From: an uncultured Lachnospiraceae bacterium
GTDB taxonomy: Bacteria; Bacillota; Clostridia; Lachnospirales; Lachnospiraceae
Assembly (NCBI GenBank): GCA_900314255.1
Contig: OMUP01000137.1
Span: 36,371 to 100,370, forward strand
DNA: 64,000 nt
Direction: 5' to 3'
Under the pieces are notes generated by a model, which worked only from the letters and a program-made list of their open reading frames with translations, was not told the DNA's origin and ran no database searches. The translations under genes were made by a program, and so were the position numbers. Positions 8,125 to 58,944 of this stretch are shown in pieces (positions within the stretch are counted from its first letter, which is position 1; each line of letters opens with the position of its first letter).

Positions 8125-9531
8125 GTGGCAGAAAAACAGAAGACCAAAAAGAACATCCTGCGAATCGGCCAGCGGCCTAAAATCGCCGTCGGCATCTTTC
8201 TGATCATTGTCTTTTATCTGATCTGCTTTACAGTCATGTACCTGACCAGAAAACACGTGCAGGTCTATGAAGTGAACACCGGTTCAGTGGCATATACGTC
8301 CACTTTCACCGGTATCGCCGTGCGGGAAGAAATGGTTGTCAATTCGAATTACAGCGGTACCTTCAACATCTACCAGCACGAGGGCAACCGGGTCAAAGCC
8401 GGTGATATTGTCTGCACGGTAGATGAGAGCGGCAAGGTGGCCGAGGCACTGTCCCAGTACACGTCCAGCGCCGGAGAGCAGCTTAACAGCGACGATATCC
8501 GCGCCATGATCACGTCGATCAATGCATACAAGACCAACTTCAGCAGCGAGGGACTCTCGGGGCTTTCTTCCCTGAAAAGCAACCTGAATTCCGTTATTCT
8601 GGGTGCCGTCACATCTGAAATTGAGGCCAATCTGGACAGCATACTGGCTTCCAGCGGACAGGCCGGTTCTTTTCAGTCACTGACAGCAGATCAGGCAGGG
8701 TACGTGGTGTACGAGACAGACGGCTGCGAATCACTGGACGATTCCAACTTCACGGCGGAAAGCTTCGATCAGTCCAGCTATGCCGAACAGAGAACGGAAA
8801 ACAATGAGAGTATTTCAGCCGGCGACCCGGCGTACAAACTTATTACCAGCGAGAACTGGTACATACTCATTCAGCTGTCTAACAGTCAGATAAGTGCAAA
8901 CGGGCTGCAGAACAAGACATCCGTGACCGTTGACTTTCTGGAAGACAACATCTCGACCACAGCCAACTTTCAGATCATCACAAAGGATGGTCTGAACTAT
9001 GGCAAAATCACGCTGAACAAATACGTGGTACGCTACTGTACGGATCGTTTTATCAACATCCGCCTTGTGACCACAAGACCGGACGGTCTGAAAATCCCTG
9101 TCTCAGCCGTGGTTCAGCAGAGTTACTACGCAATTCCTTCCGAATATGTGACACAGGGAGGCCCTGACGGCAGCAGCGGTTTCATCGCCGAGACGACAGA
9201 CAGCACCGGCGGCACTGTGCAGACATTCGTCAGCCCGAATATCCTGAGCGATCCGAAGGATTCCAGCACGGTGTATGTGAGCCGTGACGAACTGACTGAA
9301 GGAATCAGTCTTCTGGCGCCGGACTCGGATTCGCGGTATGTCATAGGTCCCACCGGTACTGTAAATGGTGTATACTGTATCAATACAGGGTACACTGTCT
9401 TTGTGCCGATCTACATAATTGATTCATCGGACGAGTATGTCATTGCCAGCACGACATACGGAGGCTTATCCAACTACGACCGCATTGTCCTGACTGCAAA
9501 AGACTTCTCGGAAAATGAGCTCATTTATTGA
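8125..9531 (+). CDS. HlyD-like single-span membrane protein
   Basis: 468 aa from a GTG start with an AGGAG site 12 bases upstream. One N-terminal membrane helix (about residues 20-45) is followed by an extracytoplasmic part with a biotinyl-lipoyl/HlyD-like element (EGNRVKAGDIVCTVDESGK, about 90-110), a helical section with Ser-rich stretches and a second beta-rich half. It resembles periplasmic-adaptor-like proteins found in Gram-positive bacteria between mgsA and ylmE/sepF. No transporter gene lies beside it. The setting between elongation genes and sepF suggests a wall- or division-related role, which is inference only. Confidence 0.7.
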   Translation: MAEKQKTKKNILRIGQRPKIAVGIFLIIVFYLICFTVMYLTRKHVQVYEVNTGSVAYTSTFTGIAVREEMVVNSNYSGTFNIYQHEGNRVKAGDIVCTVDESGKVAEALSQYTSSAGEQLNSDDIRAMITSINAYKTNFSSEGLSGLSSLKSNLNSVILGAVTSEIEANLDSILASSGQAGSFQSLTADQAGYVVYETDGCESLDDSNFTAESFDQSSYAEQRTENNESISAGDPAYKLITSENWYILIQLSNSQISANGLQNKTSVTVDFLEDNISTTANFQIITKDGLNYGKITLNKYVVRYCTDRFINIRLVTTRPDGLKIPVSAVVQQSYYAIPSEYVTQGGPDGSSGFIAETTDSTGGTVQTFVSPNILSDPKDSSTVYVSRDELTEGISLLAPDSDSRYVIGPTGTVNGVYCINTGYTVFVPIYIIDSSDEYVIASTTYGGLSNYDRIVLTAKDFSENELIY

Positions 9532-53911: not shown

Positions 53912-54529
53912 TCATATTTCCACATGAATGGCTTCTTCGCTGCCGCCCTTTTCCTGCGCCTGTTCCTCTTCCTGCCGGTCGGCCTCAGCTTCTGCCACTT
54001 GTTTCATTTTTTCAAATTCCTCGGCGCTCACCTGCGGAAGATCCCCGGTCTGTGACAGGCCGAAAGCCCGCAGAAATTCCTCCGTTGTCCCGAACAAAAG
54101 CGGTCTTCCCGGCGCATTCAGTCTGCCGGCCTCTTCGATCAGGCCGTATTCGACAAGCCGGTTCAGCGCGTGGCCGCTTGAAACACCGCGGATCTTTTCG
54201 ATTTCCAGTCTTGTCACAGGCTGCTTGTAAGCGACGATCGCCAGAGTCTCGAGAAGTGCCTGGGACAGTGTGTAGCGTTTCGGCTGACTGGCAACTGCCA
54301 CCAGCTGACGAAAAAACTGCGGTTTTGTGGAGAGCTGATAACTGTCGTCCAGTCTGCGCAGCTGGATTCCTCTTCCGGGCGCCTGATACTCCTGCTGCAT
54401 ATCCCGGAGAAGTCCTTCCATCTTTTCGTCAGATATATCCAGAGCTCCCGCGAGCGTATGGAGCGGGACCGCCGTACCCATCGTGAAAAGAATAGCCTCC
54501 GCCGCTGCTTTGTACTCACTATCCGTCAT
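53912..54529 (-). CDS. scpB: Segregation and condensation protein B
   Basis: 205 aa from ATG 54529 (GGAG six bases upstream; the TTG at 54541 is less likely). Two winged-helix domains: EAILFTMGTAVPLHTLAGALDI and TLSQALLETLAIVAYKQPVTRLEIEKIRGV. Binds ScpA within the SMC condensin complex that compacts chromosomes. The C-terminal tail is Glu/Gln-rich and probably disordered. Overlaps scpA by 11 bases. Confidence 0.95.
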   Translation of the reverse strand: MTDSEYKAAAEAILFTMGTAVPLHTLAGALDISDEKMEGLLRDMQQEYQAPGRGIQLRRLDDSYQLSTKPQFFRQLVAVASQPKRYTLSQALLETLAIVAYKQPVTRLEIEKIRGVSSGHALNRLVEYGLIEEAGRLNAPGRPLLFGTTEEFLRAFGLSQTGDLPQVSAEEFEKMKQVAEAEADRQEEEQAQEKGGSEEAIHVEI

Positions 54530-55301
54530 TTTCTTCTCCAAACTTTGCGTCCTGCGGATCCCGGATTACTTCAATTTCAATCTCTCCGCAGGTTTCCTCC
54601 TGTCTGGCCGTGACATAGCCCCGGCGGATCAGCTCCAGCACCACCAGAAACGTGACAATCAGCTGCTGCCGGCTTTCGTGCTCATCCAGGAGCTCCCGGA
54701 AATTCACATTTTTTCTGCCGTGCAGATGTTTTCTCACCGATGCCGCACCGTCAGCCATGCTGACCTTCTCGCGCACGATCTTTCCGAACTTCGAGCGGAC
54801 CGGATCGATTTTTTCCGTGCGCCGCCGCATCACATCCTCAAAGACTGCATGGAGCTTCTGCAGCGTCAGATCTCCGATCAGATCCTTTACATCGACCGGT
54901 TCCTGATATTCCGCGATCTCACCCGGGACCGGGACTTCCCGGTAGAGCACCTGCCCGGCGCTCTCTTCCCGCTCCTTCAGGTCACCGGCAGCCTCTCTTG
55001 CAATGCGGTACTCGACAAGCCGTCTGACGAGTTCGGCTCTCGGGTCATCCTCTTCTTCCTCCGTCTTTTTCTCCTGCGGAAGGAGCATTCTCGCCTTGAT
55101 ATCCAGCAGCGTGGCCGCCATCACGAGAAATTCACTGATTACATCCAGATCCTCCTCGTCCGCGGCATTTATGTATTCCATATACTGATCTGTAATCATG
55201 GCGATCGGAATGTCATAGATATTCACTTTGTTTTTTTCGATCAGATGCAGAAGCAGGTCCAGCGGCCCGTCAAATGCAGCCAGATGAAAGGTGAGTTCCA
55301 T
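54519..55301 (-). CDS. scpA: Segregation and condensation protein A
   Basis: 260 aa kleisin: N-terminal FDGPLDLLLHLIEKNKVNIYDIPIA is the family signature that binds the SMC neck; the C-terminal winged helix includes VTFLVVLELIRRGYVTARQEE. Bridges the SMC heads with ScpB. Has its own promoter at 55348-55376. Confidence 0.96.
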   Translation of the reverse strand: MELTFHLAAFDGPLDLLLHLIEKNKVNIYDIPIAMITDQYMEYINAADEEDLDVISEFLVMAATLLDIKARMLLPQEKKTEEEEDDPRAELVRRLVEYRIAREAAGDLKEREESAGQVLYREVPVPGEIAEYQEPVDVKDLIGDLTLQKLHAVFEDVMRRRTEKIDPVRSKFGKIVREKVSMADGAASVRKHLHGRKNVNFRELLDEHESRQQLIVTFLVVLELIRRGYVTARQEETCGEIEIEVIRDPQDAKFGEENDG

Positions 55302-55423: not shown

Positions 55424-55658
55424 AAAAAGGAGGCTCATTTCGGTGAAGAAATGAACCTCCTTTATAAACTCCGGTAAACCCAGGATGCCGCTGCCAACAG
55501 TAGATTCCTAGCCAAAGCCAGGTGGGTTTCCGCAGGACAGACCGCTGTCTTCCACTACAAGGAGGCCTGACATTAGAGAGCCAATATGAGAATCCCTTAT
55601 AAAGATTGTAGGATCCGACATAAAAGGCTGGCGAACACCCCAGGAAATTACTTTTGCT
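55424..55658 (-). ncRNA. ssrS: 6S RNA with intrinsic terminator
   Basis: The minus-strand transcript begins near 55658. Its 5' part has CCTGGGGTGTTCGCCAGC (from about 55644) and its 3' part GGCAGCGGCATCCTGGG (to about 55481); these match the E. coli 6S segments CTGAGATGTTCGCAAGC and CGGCGGCATCTCGGAG in both sequence and position, and pair into the closing stem (nine pairs with wobbles). A terminator follows: AAAGGAGG (55463-55456) with CCTCCTTT (55433-55426) and a T tract. 6S RNA mimics an open promoter and sequesters housekeeping RNA polymerase. Own consensus promoter. Confidence 0.87.
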
Positions 55659-55664
55659 ACGCTC

Positions 55665-55693
55665 ATTATAGACGTTTCGTGCCGGGCTTTCAA
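55665..55693 (-). promoter_or_regulatory. Promoter of 6S RNA
   Basis: Minus-strand TTGAAA (55693-55688), 17-base spacer, TATAAT (55670-55665); starts transcription near 55658. It begins 24 bases after the stop codon of the sigma-like gene. Confidence 0.85.
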
Positions 55694-55716
55694 TAAAAAC
55701 GGCGGAAAAATGCGCT

Positions 55717-56610
55717 TTACAGCGGCCCGATTTTGTGCGGGTGCATCGTCGCCTTCATCTCGATATCCGGGATACTGCTACCGGAAAATTCAATCGCCTG
55801 TGTGATCACCTCCGGAGCAACGTGCATGGCTTTGGCCAGTTCATCCGGCGTCGCCTTCCGTCCGTTTTCTTCGCGGAACTTTCTGGCCGCCTCATTGACA
55901 CGGTTGACTTGATACACGACCTGCCTCGAGACGTCGCTTTCCTCGTTCTGACTCGTGAGCAGCACGCGCATCTGGTCCTGAACCCGGGCTCTCACCTCGT
56001 CCAGCATCCCGTGAAGCACCGCCTGCAGGTCTTCCTTGCTTCCGCGCCGGATCTTGTCCCGCCACTCCGGATTTTTCAGCCACTCCTCCTGTGAGATGTA
56101 ATTAAACAGGATCAAATTTGCCTCCTGAACCAGATCGCCGGAGTCAATGCCATGCCCGACAAATGGCTGCACAAAATCCAGAATCTTCGGGAGACAGGCC
56201 TCCGTGAGCCGGCTCACCGCTGTATCGTCTTTTCCTTCCTCGATTTCCATCAGCATGTACCCGCAGTCCTCATCGGAAACCTCCGGCATTTTCGCCAGTT
56301 CATCCAGATACAGGTCCATGTTCTCATCATCTGTCTTCGGTTCCTGAATATCCGAAGAATTCTTCTCATCCTCCAGAGCTTTCTTCTCTTCCCACGCCGT
56401 ATACGCATTGCTTCCGTTGTAACCGCGGATCTTAATCCCGCCGGCGCGCAGGAAACCGTTGACCATGGTGAGCTGTTCCTCATCAAGACGGATGTCCTGA
56501 AAATATTCTTTTATATCTTCTTCGGTTATAAAACCGCCGTTTACCTTCGCGTATTCCTTCAGATTGTTCAGATCCTCCAGAAATTTAGCCTGACGCGATT
56601 CTTCTGCCAT
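55717..56610 (-). CDS. Sigma-70-like protein without region 4
   Basis: 297 aa from ATG 56610 (AAAGGA upstream). Order resembles RpoD: a region 1.1-like segment (FITEEDIKEYFQDIRLDEEQ, about 26-60), region 1.2 (DENMDLYLDELAKMPEVSDED, about 92-112), region 2.1-2.2 core-binding segment (ACLPKILDFVQPFVGHG then DLVQEANLILF, about 139-170), and region 3-like KFREENGRKATPDELAKAMHV. The -10-recognition helix (region 2.3-2.4, normally aromatic-rich YATWWIRQAI) is replaced by an unrelated charged helix, and region 4 is absent. It might bind core polymerase without recognising promoters. Directly upstream of the 6S RNA gene. Confidence 0.75.
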   Translation of the reverse strand: MAEESRQAKFLEDLNNLKEYAKVNGGFITEEDIKEYFQDIRLDEEQLTMVNGFLRAGGIKIRGYNGSNAYTAWEEKKALEDEKNSSDIQEPKTDDENMDLYLDELAKMPEVSDEDCGYMLMEIEEGKDDTAVSRLTEACLPKILDFVQPFVGHGIDSGDLVQEANLILFNYISQEEWLKNPEWRDKIRRGSKEDLQAVLHGMLDEVRARVQDQMRVLLTSQNEESDVSRQVVYQVNRVNEAARKFREENGRKATPDELAKAMHVAPEVITQAIEFSGSSIPDIEMKATMHPHKIGPL

Positions 56611-56764
56611 TGTGCAATATTCCTTTCCCTCAGGCATGCAGAGCCGGTTTCCTTTATTTGCCGCCTGATGCACACCGTGCTATACTTGAGAAAACAGCGC
56701 GTGCCAGGACGGCACACGATTTTGTTTACATCTTATCATAACAGAAACGAGGTATGAACGTCAC

Positions 56765-57406
56765 ATGAGAATTGCTCTGATCAACGAGAACAGCCAGGCA
56801 GCCAAAAACGGCACCATTTATGCTGCCCTCAAGAAAGTCGCAGATGAAAAGGGATACACGGTCGACAACTACGGCATGTATGCCGCGGACGACGAAGCTC
56901 AGCTCACATATGTCCAGAACGGTATTCTTGCTGCCATCCTGCTGAACTCAAAGGCAGCAGATTTCGTGGTTACCGGATGCGGTACCGGCGAGGGCGCAAT
57001 GCTTGCTCTGAATTCATTCCCGGGTGTTATCTGCGGCCACGTGGAAGATCCGCTGGATGCTTATACATTTGCCCAGATCAACGACGGAAACGCCATCGCG
57101 ATCCCGTTCGCACTGCGCTTCGGCTGGGCCGGCGACCTGAACCTTCAGTACATCTTCGAGAAGCTCTGGTCCGAGCCGTCAGGAAGCGGTTATCCGAAGG
57201 AAAGAGCCGTTCCGGAAAAGCGCAACAAGCAGATTCTTGACACGGTCCGCAAGGCAGCTTTCAAGGAAGACCTGGTTGAAATCCTGAAGAGCCTGGATCC
57301 GGAGCTCGTCAAGGGCGCTGTTGCCGGCAAGAACTTCAAGGATCTGTTCTTCACAAACTGCAAAGACGAGAAGATCGGCGCATATGTAAAGTCGATTCTC
57401 GACTGA
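56765..57406 (+). CDS. RpiB/LacAB-family sugar-phosphate isomerase
   Basis: 213 aa. RpiB-like core: MRIALINENSQAAKNGTIYAAL, FVVTGCGTGEGAMLALNSFPGV (family GTGxG with the catalytic Cys), then CGHVEDPLDAYTFAQINDGNAIAIP. Typical RpiB proteins have about 150 residues; this one has about 60 extra C-terminal residues (VPEKRNKQILDTVRKA...). Isomerises ribose-5-phosphate or a galactose-6-phosphate-like sugar; which is unclear. Divergent from the sigma-like gene; the GAGG site is 11 bases from the start, rather far. Confidence 0.85.
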   Translation: MRIALINENSQAAKNGTIYAALKKVADEKGYTVDNYGMYAADDEAQLTYVQNGILAAILLNSKAADFVVTGCGTGEGAMLALNSFPGVICGHVEDPLDAYTFAQINDGNAIAIPFALRFGWAGDLNLQYIFEKLWSEPSGSGYPKERAVPEKRNKQILDTVRKAAFKEDLVEILKSLDPELVKGAVAGKNFKDLFFTNCKDEKIGAYVKSILD

Positions 57407-57981: not shown

Positions 57982-58944
57982 ATGACAAATGCAGAACTGA
58001 CTGTCGCCAAAGATTCATCCGGCAGCTTCACAAGTATACAGAAAGCTGTCGATGCCCTTCCGGACACCGGCGGCGTAATACGGATTGCGGCCGGCACCTG
58101 GAACGAGCGTGTTGAAATCCGCAAACCGGGTGTCACGATCATTGGCCAGGGAAGCGACCGCACCACAATCAGTGCCGGATACGGCGCGAACATGAAAATG
58201 CCGGACGGCAGCCGCCGCGGGACATTCCGTTCCTACACAATGCTCATTTTCACACATGACTTTCATGCGGAAGGAATCTGTGTGGAGAATACAGCCGGCC
58301 CCGGAAGACTGGCCGGTCAGGCCATCGCTGTGTATGCAGAAGGTGACAGGATTTCGTTCCGGAACTGCCGGATACTCGGCGCGCAGGACACTCTTTTCAC
58401 CGGTCCGCTTCCGCCCGCAGAAATCGAACCGGGAGGCTTCACAGGTCCCACAAAAGAAGCACCTCGTATACCAGGACGTCAGCTCTATGAATCCTGTTTC
58501 ATATCCGGCGAAATTGACTTTATCTTCGGCTCGGCCCGAGCATATTTTTACGACTGTACGCTTCACGCCATCGACAGCGGACGATACCCCGATGCATTTT
58601 ACTGCGCACCATCGACCAATGAAGGGGAGGCGTTCGGCTATGTTTTTGACCGCTGCCGTTTCACCGGCGACTGTCCGAAGGGCAGCGCGTTTCTGGCGCG
58701 TCCGTGGAGAGACTATGCAAAGGCAGTTTTCCTGAACTGCTCGATGGACTCATCCGTCAATCCGCTGGGGGTTGATGACTGGAACAAGCCGCAGACACAC
58801 GAAAGTGCGTTTTTCGCGCAGTACAACTGCACAGGAGAAGGAGCCGGAACAGTTCAGACCCGGGCAGCCTTCATGCATTTCCTGACTGAAAAAGAAGCGG
58901 CCGCCTTCAACAGGGAAGCTGTGCTCGGCACAGATTTCTCCTGA
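57982..58944 (+). CDS. Pectinesterase-family protein, no signal peptide
   Basis: 320 aa. Right-handed beta-helix of carbohydrate esterase family 8: SSGSFTSIQKAVDALPD at the start, then GAQDTLF and GEIDFIFGSARAYF, which hold the two catalytic aspartates, and FLARPWRDYAKAVFLNC (Arg/Trp motif). Removes methyl esters from pectin. It begins MTNAELTVAKD with no signal sequence, so a cytoplasmic enzyme acting on imported oligogalacturonides is likely. No pectate lyase or uronate genes are nearby. Confidence 0.92.
   Translation: MTNAELTVAKDSSGSFTSIQKAVDALPDTGGVIRIAAGTWNERVEIRKPGVTIIGQGSDRTTISAGYGANMKMPDGSRRGTFRSYTMLIFTHDFHAEGICVENTAGPGRLAGQAIAVYAEGDRISFRNCRILGAQDTLFTGPLPPAEIEPGGFTGPTKEAPRIPGRQLYESCFISGEIDFIFGSARAYFYDCTLHAIDSGRYPDAFYCAPSTNEGEAFGYVFDRCRFTGDCPKGSAFLARPWRDYAKAVFLNCSMDSSVNPLGVDDWNKPQTHESAFFAQYNCTGEGAGTVQTRAAFMHFLTEKEAAAFNREAVLGTDFS

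Follow-up and report, generated by a model that had tools for sequence, protein, structure and literature searches.

The window analysed here is a 64,000 nucleotide (nt) stretch of contig OMUP01000137.1 from an uncultured Lachnospiraceae bacterium, and one of its minus-strand genes encodes a 297 amino acid (aa) protein, for whose family we use the name SIGL. SIGL is descended from sigma-70; it largely retains the residues with which the housekeeping sigma factor contacts the beta-prime subunit of RNA polymerase and has lost those that read promoters. We propose, at a probability of about 0.45, that this sigma-A derivative docks on the clamp helices of beta-prime, cannot read promoters, and competes with sigma-A or parks the core enzyme. 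The family is apparently undescribed, as no account of it was found in the open-access literature (titles and the beginnings of abstracts; subscription journals and preprints lay outside its scope). The gene and its most telling segment are:

55717..56610, minus strand: SIGL gene, encoding the 297-aa sigma-A-derived protein, with its ATG at 56610 and its stop at 55717
56116..56136, minus strand: codons for DLVQEAN, residues 159–165, which correspond to sigma-70 D403–N409, the beta-prime coiled-coil contact

Sequence comparison indicates that the sigma homology of SIGL is not due to chance: phmmer aligns it with B. subtilis SigA at E = 6.9e-11, and the Pfam Sigma70_r3 profile matches the window protein with 29.4 bits, above its cut-off of 25.3. 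Sigma70_r1_1 reaches 22.2 bits, 0.3 under its cut-off of 22.5, and Sigma70_r2 fails with 13.7 bits against a cut-off of 24, matching at profile positions 3–35 of 71; the SIGL copy of one relative (G077) clears the region 2 cut-off with 25.7 bits. Sigma70_r4 has no Pfam match in the window protein, and no region 4 is aligned in the SIGLs that were compared. The order of parts is regions 1.1, 1.2, 2.1–2.2, an altered 2.3–3.0 and 3.1, with no recognisable 2.3–2.4, 3.0, sigma finger or region 4. An earlier reading of the window from its sequence only had described a sigma-70-like 297-aa product that lacks region 4, has its -10-recognition part replaced and keeps segments like regions 1.1, 1.2, 2.1–2.2 and 3, and all of this is borne out by the comparison except that region 3 is kept only in part (3.1 is present; 3.0 is gone, as is the sigma finger). 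The genome's own RpoD is a separate gene on another contig (C178).

The residues kept and lost were counted in 68 SIGLs (a set that includes L064 and L067 and leaves out L144; L079 is an RpoD) and compared with 14 RpoD proteins, the E. coli numbering of SIGL positions being anchored on the DLIQEGN motif. D403, Q406, E407 and N409 are the residues by which sigma2.2 contacts the beta-prime coiled coil (PMC8321222). D403 is retained in 68/68 SIGLs, E407 in 66/68, N409 in 60/68 and Q406 in 41/68 (the latter position is Gly in 26), and the window protein carries the full set (D, Q, E and N). In a first alignment of 29 SIGLs, D159 (= D403) is the sole invariant column. Mean retention of the four contact residues is 0.86, a value reached by 0.03% of random four-position sets (p = 0.0003) drawn among the 85 RpoD-invariant positions of aligned region 375–510, for which mean retention is 0.28. 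Nine positions, including Y430, W433, W434 and Q437, make up what we take to be the promoter-reading set, and here mean retention is 0.05; the eight of them that are invariant in RpoD are retained less than random sets are (p = 0.004). W433 is found in 1/68 SIGLs, W434 and the WW pair in none of the 68, Y430 in 13% and Q437 in 3%. The net charge of the 2.3–2.4 stretch goes from +2.7 in the 14 RpoD proteins to -4.7 in the 68 SIGLs, and that of the whole window protein is -25. A beta-prime patch that is kept while the promoter-reading parts are lost points to a protein that grips the core without starting transcription.

Seven SIGL copies come from congeners with reduced genomes; six of these (144–189 aa) lack regions 1.1–1.2, that of G007 (274 aa) has them, and all seven retain D403, Q406 and E407. 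The shrunken SIGLs at loci L062, L063, L078, L080, L009 and L011 keep the beta-prime patch and region 3.1; the 274-aa protein of L007 is not shrunk. The ratio of nonsynonymous to synonymous substitution rates (dN/dS) between the SIGL of the window and those of two congeners is 0.05 and 0.08, so SIGL is, by these codon comparisons, under purifying selection. Taken with the residue retention, this suggests that selection keeps SIGL, and that the patch for gripping polymerase seems to be what it mainly keeps.

Structure prediction for the protein alone, which the sequence-only reading had named as a check, gave a sigma-like fold. The model of the window protein (predicted local distance difference test score, pLDDT, 76; predicted template modelling score, pTM, 0.44) and that of a Kineothrix alysoides relative (pLDDT 88, pTM 0.64; gene neighbourhood type A, below) are both mostly helical, and in Foldseek searches with each of them all 50 listed matches derive from sigma factors or from polymerase complexes that contain one. 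The top match for both is the SigA chain in a model of SigA with RpoC (E = 2.1e-8 for the window model and 9.5e-8 for the type A model), and the best local alignment to the type A model is that of an RpoS region 1.2–2 fragment, with a template modelling (TM) score of 0.68 by target length. The stretch that runs from 2.3–2.4 to 3.1 in sigma factors is a single helix of 58 residues in the window model and 49 in the K. alysoides model; its confidence falls mid-way in the former (block mean 56), and the RpoD proline at position 453, within this stretch, is kept in 0/68 SIGLs.

In a tree of the 68 SIGL and 14 RpoD rows, RpoD forms one separate clade (100/100), one branch sets apart the SIGLs of neighbourhood type A (100/94), and another those of the window's own type B (96/84). 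We counted SIGL in about 133 of 200 Lachnospiraceae genomes (199 genera, each genome at least 90% complete) with a profile of 29 SIGLs; the figure (84 + 25 + 24 carriers) is an estimate because calls were made by reading rows, a row being taken as SIGL when it scored more bits than any RpoD row, or when its frame was no longer than ~310 aa and it had at least 85 bits. A survey of 118 genomes of the class contained four of Lachnospiraceae, two of them with SIGL, and none was recognised in the other 114, from other families, among the matches listed (down to E ~1.6e-18), leaving aside the odd frames G327:C82 (87.6 bits) and G250:C15 (71.4 bits). Every one of 61 genomes (the window's own and relatives) has an RpoD- or SIGL-like match, and among 24 genomes of other families in the order a second match was found only in G055, a weak one of 19.6 bits. 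The type A motif EDLIGEGN, in a scan of named genomes, is present in at least 581 relatives; most of the 80 listed are labelled Lachnospiraceae and the remainder carry broader or related labels, Kineothrix alysoides and Parablautia muri being named strains. We note that one Lachnospiraceae genome has two tandem RpoD-like genes, with frames of 368 and 384 aa (G093:C2:379845-381765).

The proposed mechanism has two parts of unequal strength. SIGL probably docks on core RNA polymerase, to judge from the contact residues it keeps, and would do so through the interface between sigma region 2.1–2.2 and the beta-prime clamp helices. Once docked it would be unable to recognise or melt a promoter, and would occupy the clamp site, presenting an acidic face in place of the basic, aromatic helix with which sigma-A reads the -10 element. 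SIGL may then compete with sigma-A for core, or keep part of the core pool unusable, so that the outcome would be an anti-sigma-like effect exerted through binding of polymerase, not of sigma; that the net effect opposes sigma-A is, at somewhat less than even odds, a more tentative suggestion than the docking. Some form of decoy or anti-sigma-like action, as the sequence-only reading had proposed, is a sound inference. A charge plug formed by region 1.1 as the sole mechanism is weakened by that region's being less acidic than that of RpoD.

Several observations weigh against this proposal. The lower acidity of region 1.1 (mean charge -5.5 in SIGL, -14.4 in RpoD) speaks against a simple plug for the DNA channel. 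None of the 25 type A copies has Q406, N409 is missing from 6/7 copies of the reduced-genome congeners, and E482 (67/68) and N461 (60/68), for which no core contact is stated here, are kept as well. The retention counts overstate the number of events since related sequences are not independent, and the dN/dS values of 0.05 and 0.08 come from pairs with dS of 1.2–1.4, near saturation. Model quality for the window protein is middling (pLDDT 76, pTM 0.44, helix middle 56). Superposed globally on sigma chains, the models score low (TM ~0.2–0.4), which would fit domains that are arranged differently. This surface of sigma is also open to anti-sigma factors (one of them, CsfB, uses sporulation sigmas at regions 2.1 or 2.2/2.3; PMC4383634), so retention of the patch also fits an anti-sigma decoy.

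The same docking evidence and contact-residue retention would also serve if SIGL were an adaptor, which sits on the beta-prime clamp helices and tethers another factor to core or elongating polymerase. Candidates for such a factor come from the gene neighbourhoods, surveyed at 65 SIGL loci (the names ScpA, ScpB and RpiB-like are from Pfam matches; rhomboid-like, YihY-like, GNAT, insulinase-like, era and recO were assigned by eye or from recall). The 25 type A loci all have a gene for a rhomboid-like membrane protein directly upstream of SIGL, with a gap of <20 nt or an overlap in 19/25, and in 21/25 a 130–160-aa protein of no known family is encoded downstream, with a gap of no more than 12 nt or an overlap in all 21; an insulinase-like peptidase, era and recO come after in many of them. 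Tight gene groups are seen, for example, at L028, L065, L073, L113–L118 and L120–L124. The membrane protein, which ends in a Cys-rich tail (HkCAICGrt...FRFCSKCnGNYEYC), has no Pfam match at E 0.1 beyond a sub-threshold rhombosortase match, and the small protein has no convincing one (one member of each tested). Both are possible partners of SIGL. In the window's clade and in the type C loci read (some with flanks of only ~1.5 kb), however, no such membrane protein was seen next to SIGL, and an adaptor role is unlikely, if still worth keeping in mind.

A second alternative, and a distinctly less probable one, is that SIGL mimics sigma-A and thereby titrates an anti-sigma-A factor, which leaves sigma-A free, as PhyR does in its own system. 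PhyR is a known DNA-blind sigma mimic with such a job (PMC8103513), and sigma region 2 can be bound by anti-sigmas (PMC4383634). The core-binding region of PhyR, however, appears degenerate, and in SIGL this is among the best-kept parts; a Pfam search of the window protein finds no receiver domain, and inspection by eye, without an anti-sigma profile search, recognised no anti-sigma gene among the SIGL neighbours.

SIGL might also be the core-binding half of a split sigma factor, with another protein supplying the DNA-binding half, as in the RsoA–SigO pair of B. subtilis (PMC8103513). The window's genome does hold short frames with region-4-like matches (169 and 134 aa, for example), but the residues for -10 reading, which the region 2 half of such a pair ought to contribute, are missing from SIGL, inspection by eye of the recurring neighbours at the 65 loci turned up no region-4 gene, and a search of the own genome for an orphan region-4 partner gave no clear candidate, these short frames being left aside. 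We regard this arrangement as highly improbable.

The window itself suggests another partner, a 6S RNA gene immediately past SIGL on the same strand. The features of this block are:

55473-55649, minus strand: 6S RNA gene (RF00013, 67.6 bits against a cut-off of 46.4)
55693-55665, minus strand: 6S promoter, TTGAAA-17-TATAAT, 11/12 consensus matches
55426..55463, minus strand: hairpin and T-run after 6S, a likely terminator, seen directly in the sequence
56735..56764, minus strand: possible SIGL promoter, GTGACG-18-TATGAT, its second hexamer preceded by TG, 9/12 consensus
56698..56718, minus strand: hairpin upstream of the SIGL start, terminator-like according to the terminator scan
56765..57406, plus strand: RpiB-like sugar isomerase gene (Pfam match), the divergent neighbour that marks the block
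54519..55301, minus strand: scpA (Pfam match), the next gene past 6S in the block
53912-54541: scpB (Pfam match), after scpA

The RF00013 match is the sole one in the whole genome at E <= 0.001. It lies 67 nt from the SIGL gene, and its promoter hexamers are also readable in three relatives (G009, G005 and G010). The closeness of the SIGL stop to the -35 box claimed by the sequence-only reading holds, with 23 bases between them by our count and not the 24 given there. The terminator scan of the window lists none between the SIGL gene and the 6S promoter, so SIGL transcripts may run into 6S, a suggestion that comes from the window only; the hairpin past 6S (~55463-55426), whose stem has a mismatch, is absent from the scan's list. 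On the other side of the block, G009 and G005 retain the possible SIGL promoter, although this DNA also adjoins the start of the RpiB-like gene, and the hairpin at 56698-56718 has a similar stem with other bases in these two genomes when compared by eye. A GTG start in the SIGL frame would give 318 aa; the ATG is preferred because AAAGGAA precedes it and the G009 relative begins at the same place. A pectinesterase-like gene (named by eye) lies near the block at 57982-58944, and one is also near SIGL in G005, G010, G018 and G077.

This arrangement belongs to the window's clade, type B, which has the order RpiB and/or GNAT, SIGL, 6S, ScpA/ScpB (type C comprises the remaining SIGL loci, with scattered contexts). 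Thirteen type B genomes have 6S close to SIGL. In six of them, from three genera (G000, G005, G009, G010, G018 and G077), it lies 35–196 nt downstream on the same strand, and in the other 7/13 it is inverted, 0.9–1.2 kb from SIGL with a YihY-like gene between; in G217, which is outside the tree, the block has extra genes between and 6S is 2.4 kb away. Among the 100 carriers that could be placed (133 less the 33 without a 6S position), 6S and SIGL are within 3 kb in five, all with the RpiB–SIGL–6S–ScpA block, on the same contig but at least 27 kb apart in 14, and on different contigs in 81. Draft contigs can hide adjacency, yet in types A and C other genes adjoin SIGL. The link appears to be shared within one clade, where most simply it arose once and is now loosening, and these placement counts rule out pairing with 6S as a general rule. 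The sequence-only reading thus stands in its sigma relative that lacks promoter recognition and keeps the beta-prime-binding patch (by residue retention), and falls in its general pair with 6S RNA: homologues are scattered, the very outcome that this reading had named as refuting, and even inside the clade 6S may be inverted or distant. The possibility that SIGL is a dedicated 6S partner, for which the close same-strand order in six genomes speaks, is very remote, since 6S binds the sigma-70 holoenzyme (PMC10406553) and SIGL lacks the DNA-contact residues. We note that 6S is within ~20 kb of rpoD in several other Lachnospiraceae genomes, and that in G099, which has two rpoD-like genes (L233 2684-3901 and 9529-10662), the second begins 34 nt past 6S (9316-9494). 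Three type B genomes have a transfer-messenger RNA gene at a distance of 3.6–6.7 kb from SIGL (L077 775-1132, L063 3923-4315 and L078 12399-12789); none was found in the window itself.

Finally, a functionless, decaying rpoD copy, which the divergence of the sequences (median end branch 0.66), copies down to 144 aa and one stop codon inside the match in 14/84 SIGL rows might suggest, is rejected as next to impossible on the dN/dS of 0.05–0.08 and the position of the stops (in the 10 of these 14 rows that were checked, nine are in the last four match residues, like natural ends, and one is at residue 6, in G025), and RpoD forms its own clade.

Proteins with the shape of a sigma factor but without its activity are already known, and SIGL differs from each of those compared here. 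It shares with SigA/RpoD regions 1.1, 1.2, 2.1, 2.2 and 3.1 in order, a predicted sigma-like fold and the beta-prime contact residues, but lacks recognisable 2.3–2.4, 3.0, finger and region 4, and stands apart from the RpoD clade, the genome having its own RpoD elsewhere. The sigma-like domain of PhyR is likewise sigma-shaped and cannot start transcription, but is extracytoplasmic function (ECF)-like, is joined to a receiver and has an apparently degenerate core-binding region, where SIGL is sigma-A-derived and keeps that region (PMC8103513). RsoA also has region 2 without region 4, but starts transcription with SigO, whereas SIGL lacks -10-reading residues and has 1.1 and 3.1 (PMC8103513). 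In E. coli the protein Rsd and 6S RNA both act on sigma-70 polymerase; Rsd, however, binds sigma-70, while SIGL is predicted to bind core and has 6S as a neighbour in one clade only (PMC5982834). CsfB is thought to act on sigma/core interfaces, but it too binds sigma (PMC4383634).

If core docking and a regulatory role hold, SIGL would be more than a variation on known sigma mimics. A broader view, that it represents an unreported class of regulator in which a housekeeping sigma has been turned into a promoter-blind core binder that parks or hands over core in about two-thirds of the sampled Lachnospiraceae genera, in type A with a co-encoded rhomboid-like membrane protein, is speculative and rather doubtful. 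Docking would also be a warning not to count such genes as sigma factors in annotation. If the docking is true, many members of the Lachnospiraceae, a large gut family, would have a second protein of the sigma-A kind, able to grip polymerase but not to read promoters; this would be a sigma-based control of core polymerase distinct from anti-sigma factors and 6S RNA, and would offer a direct test of which sigma surfaces suffice for core binding.
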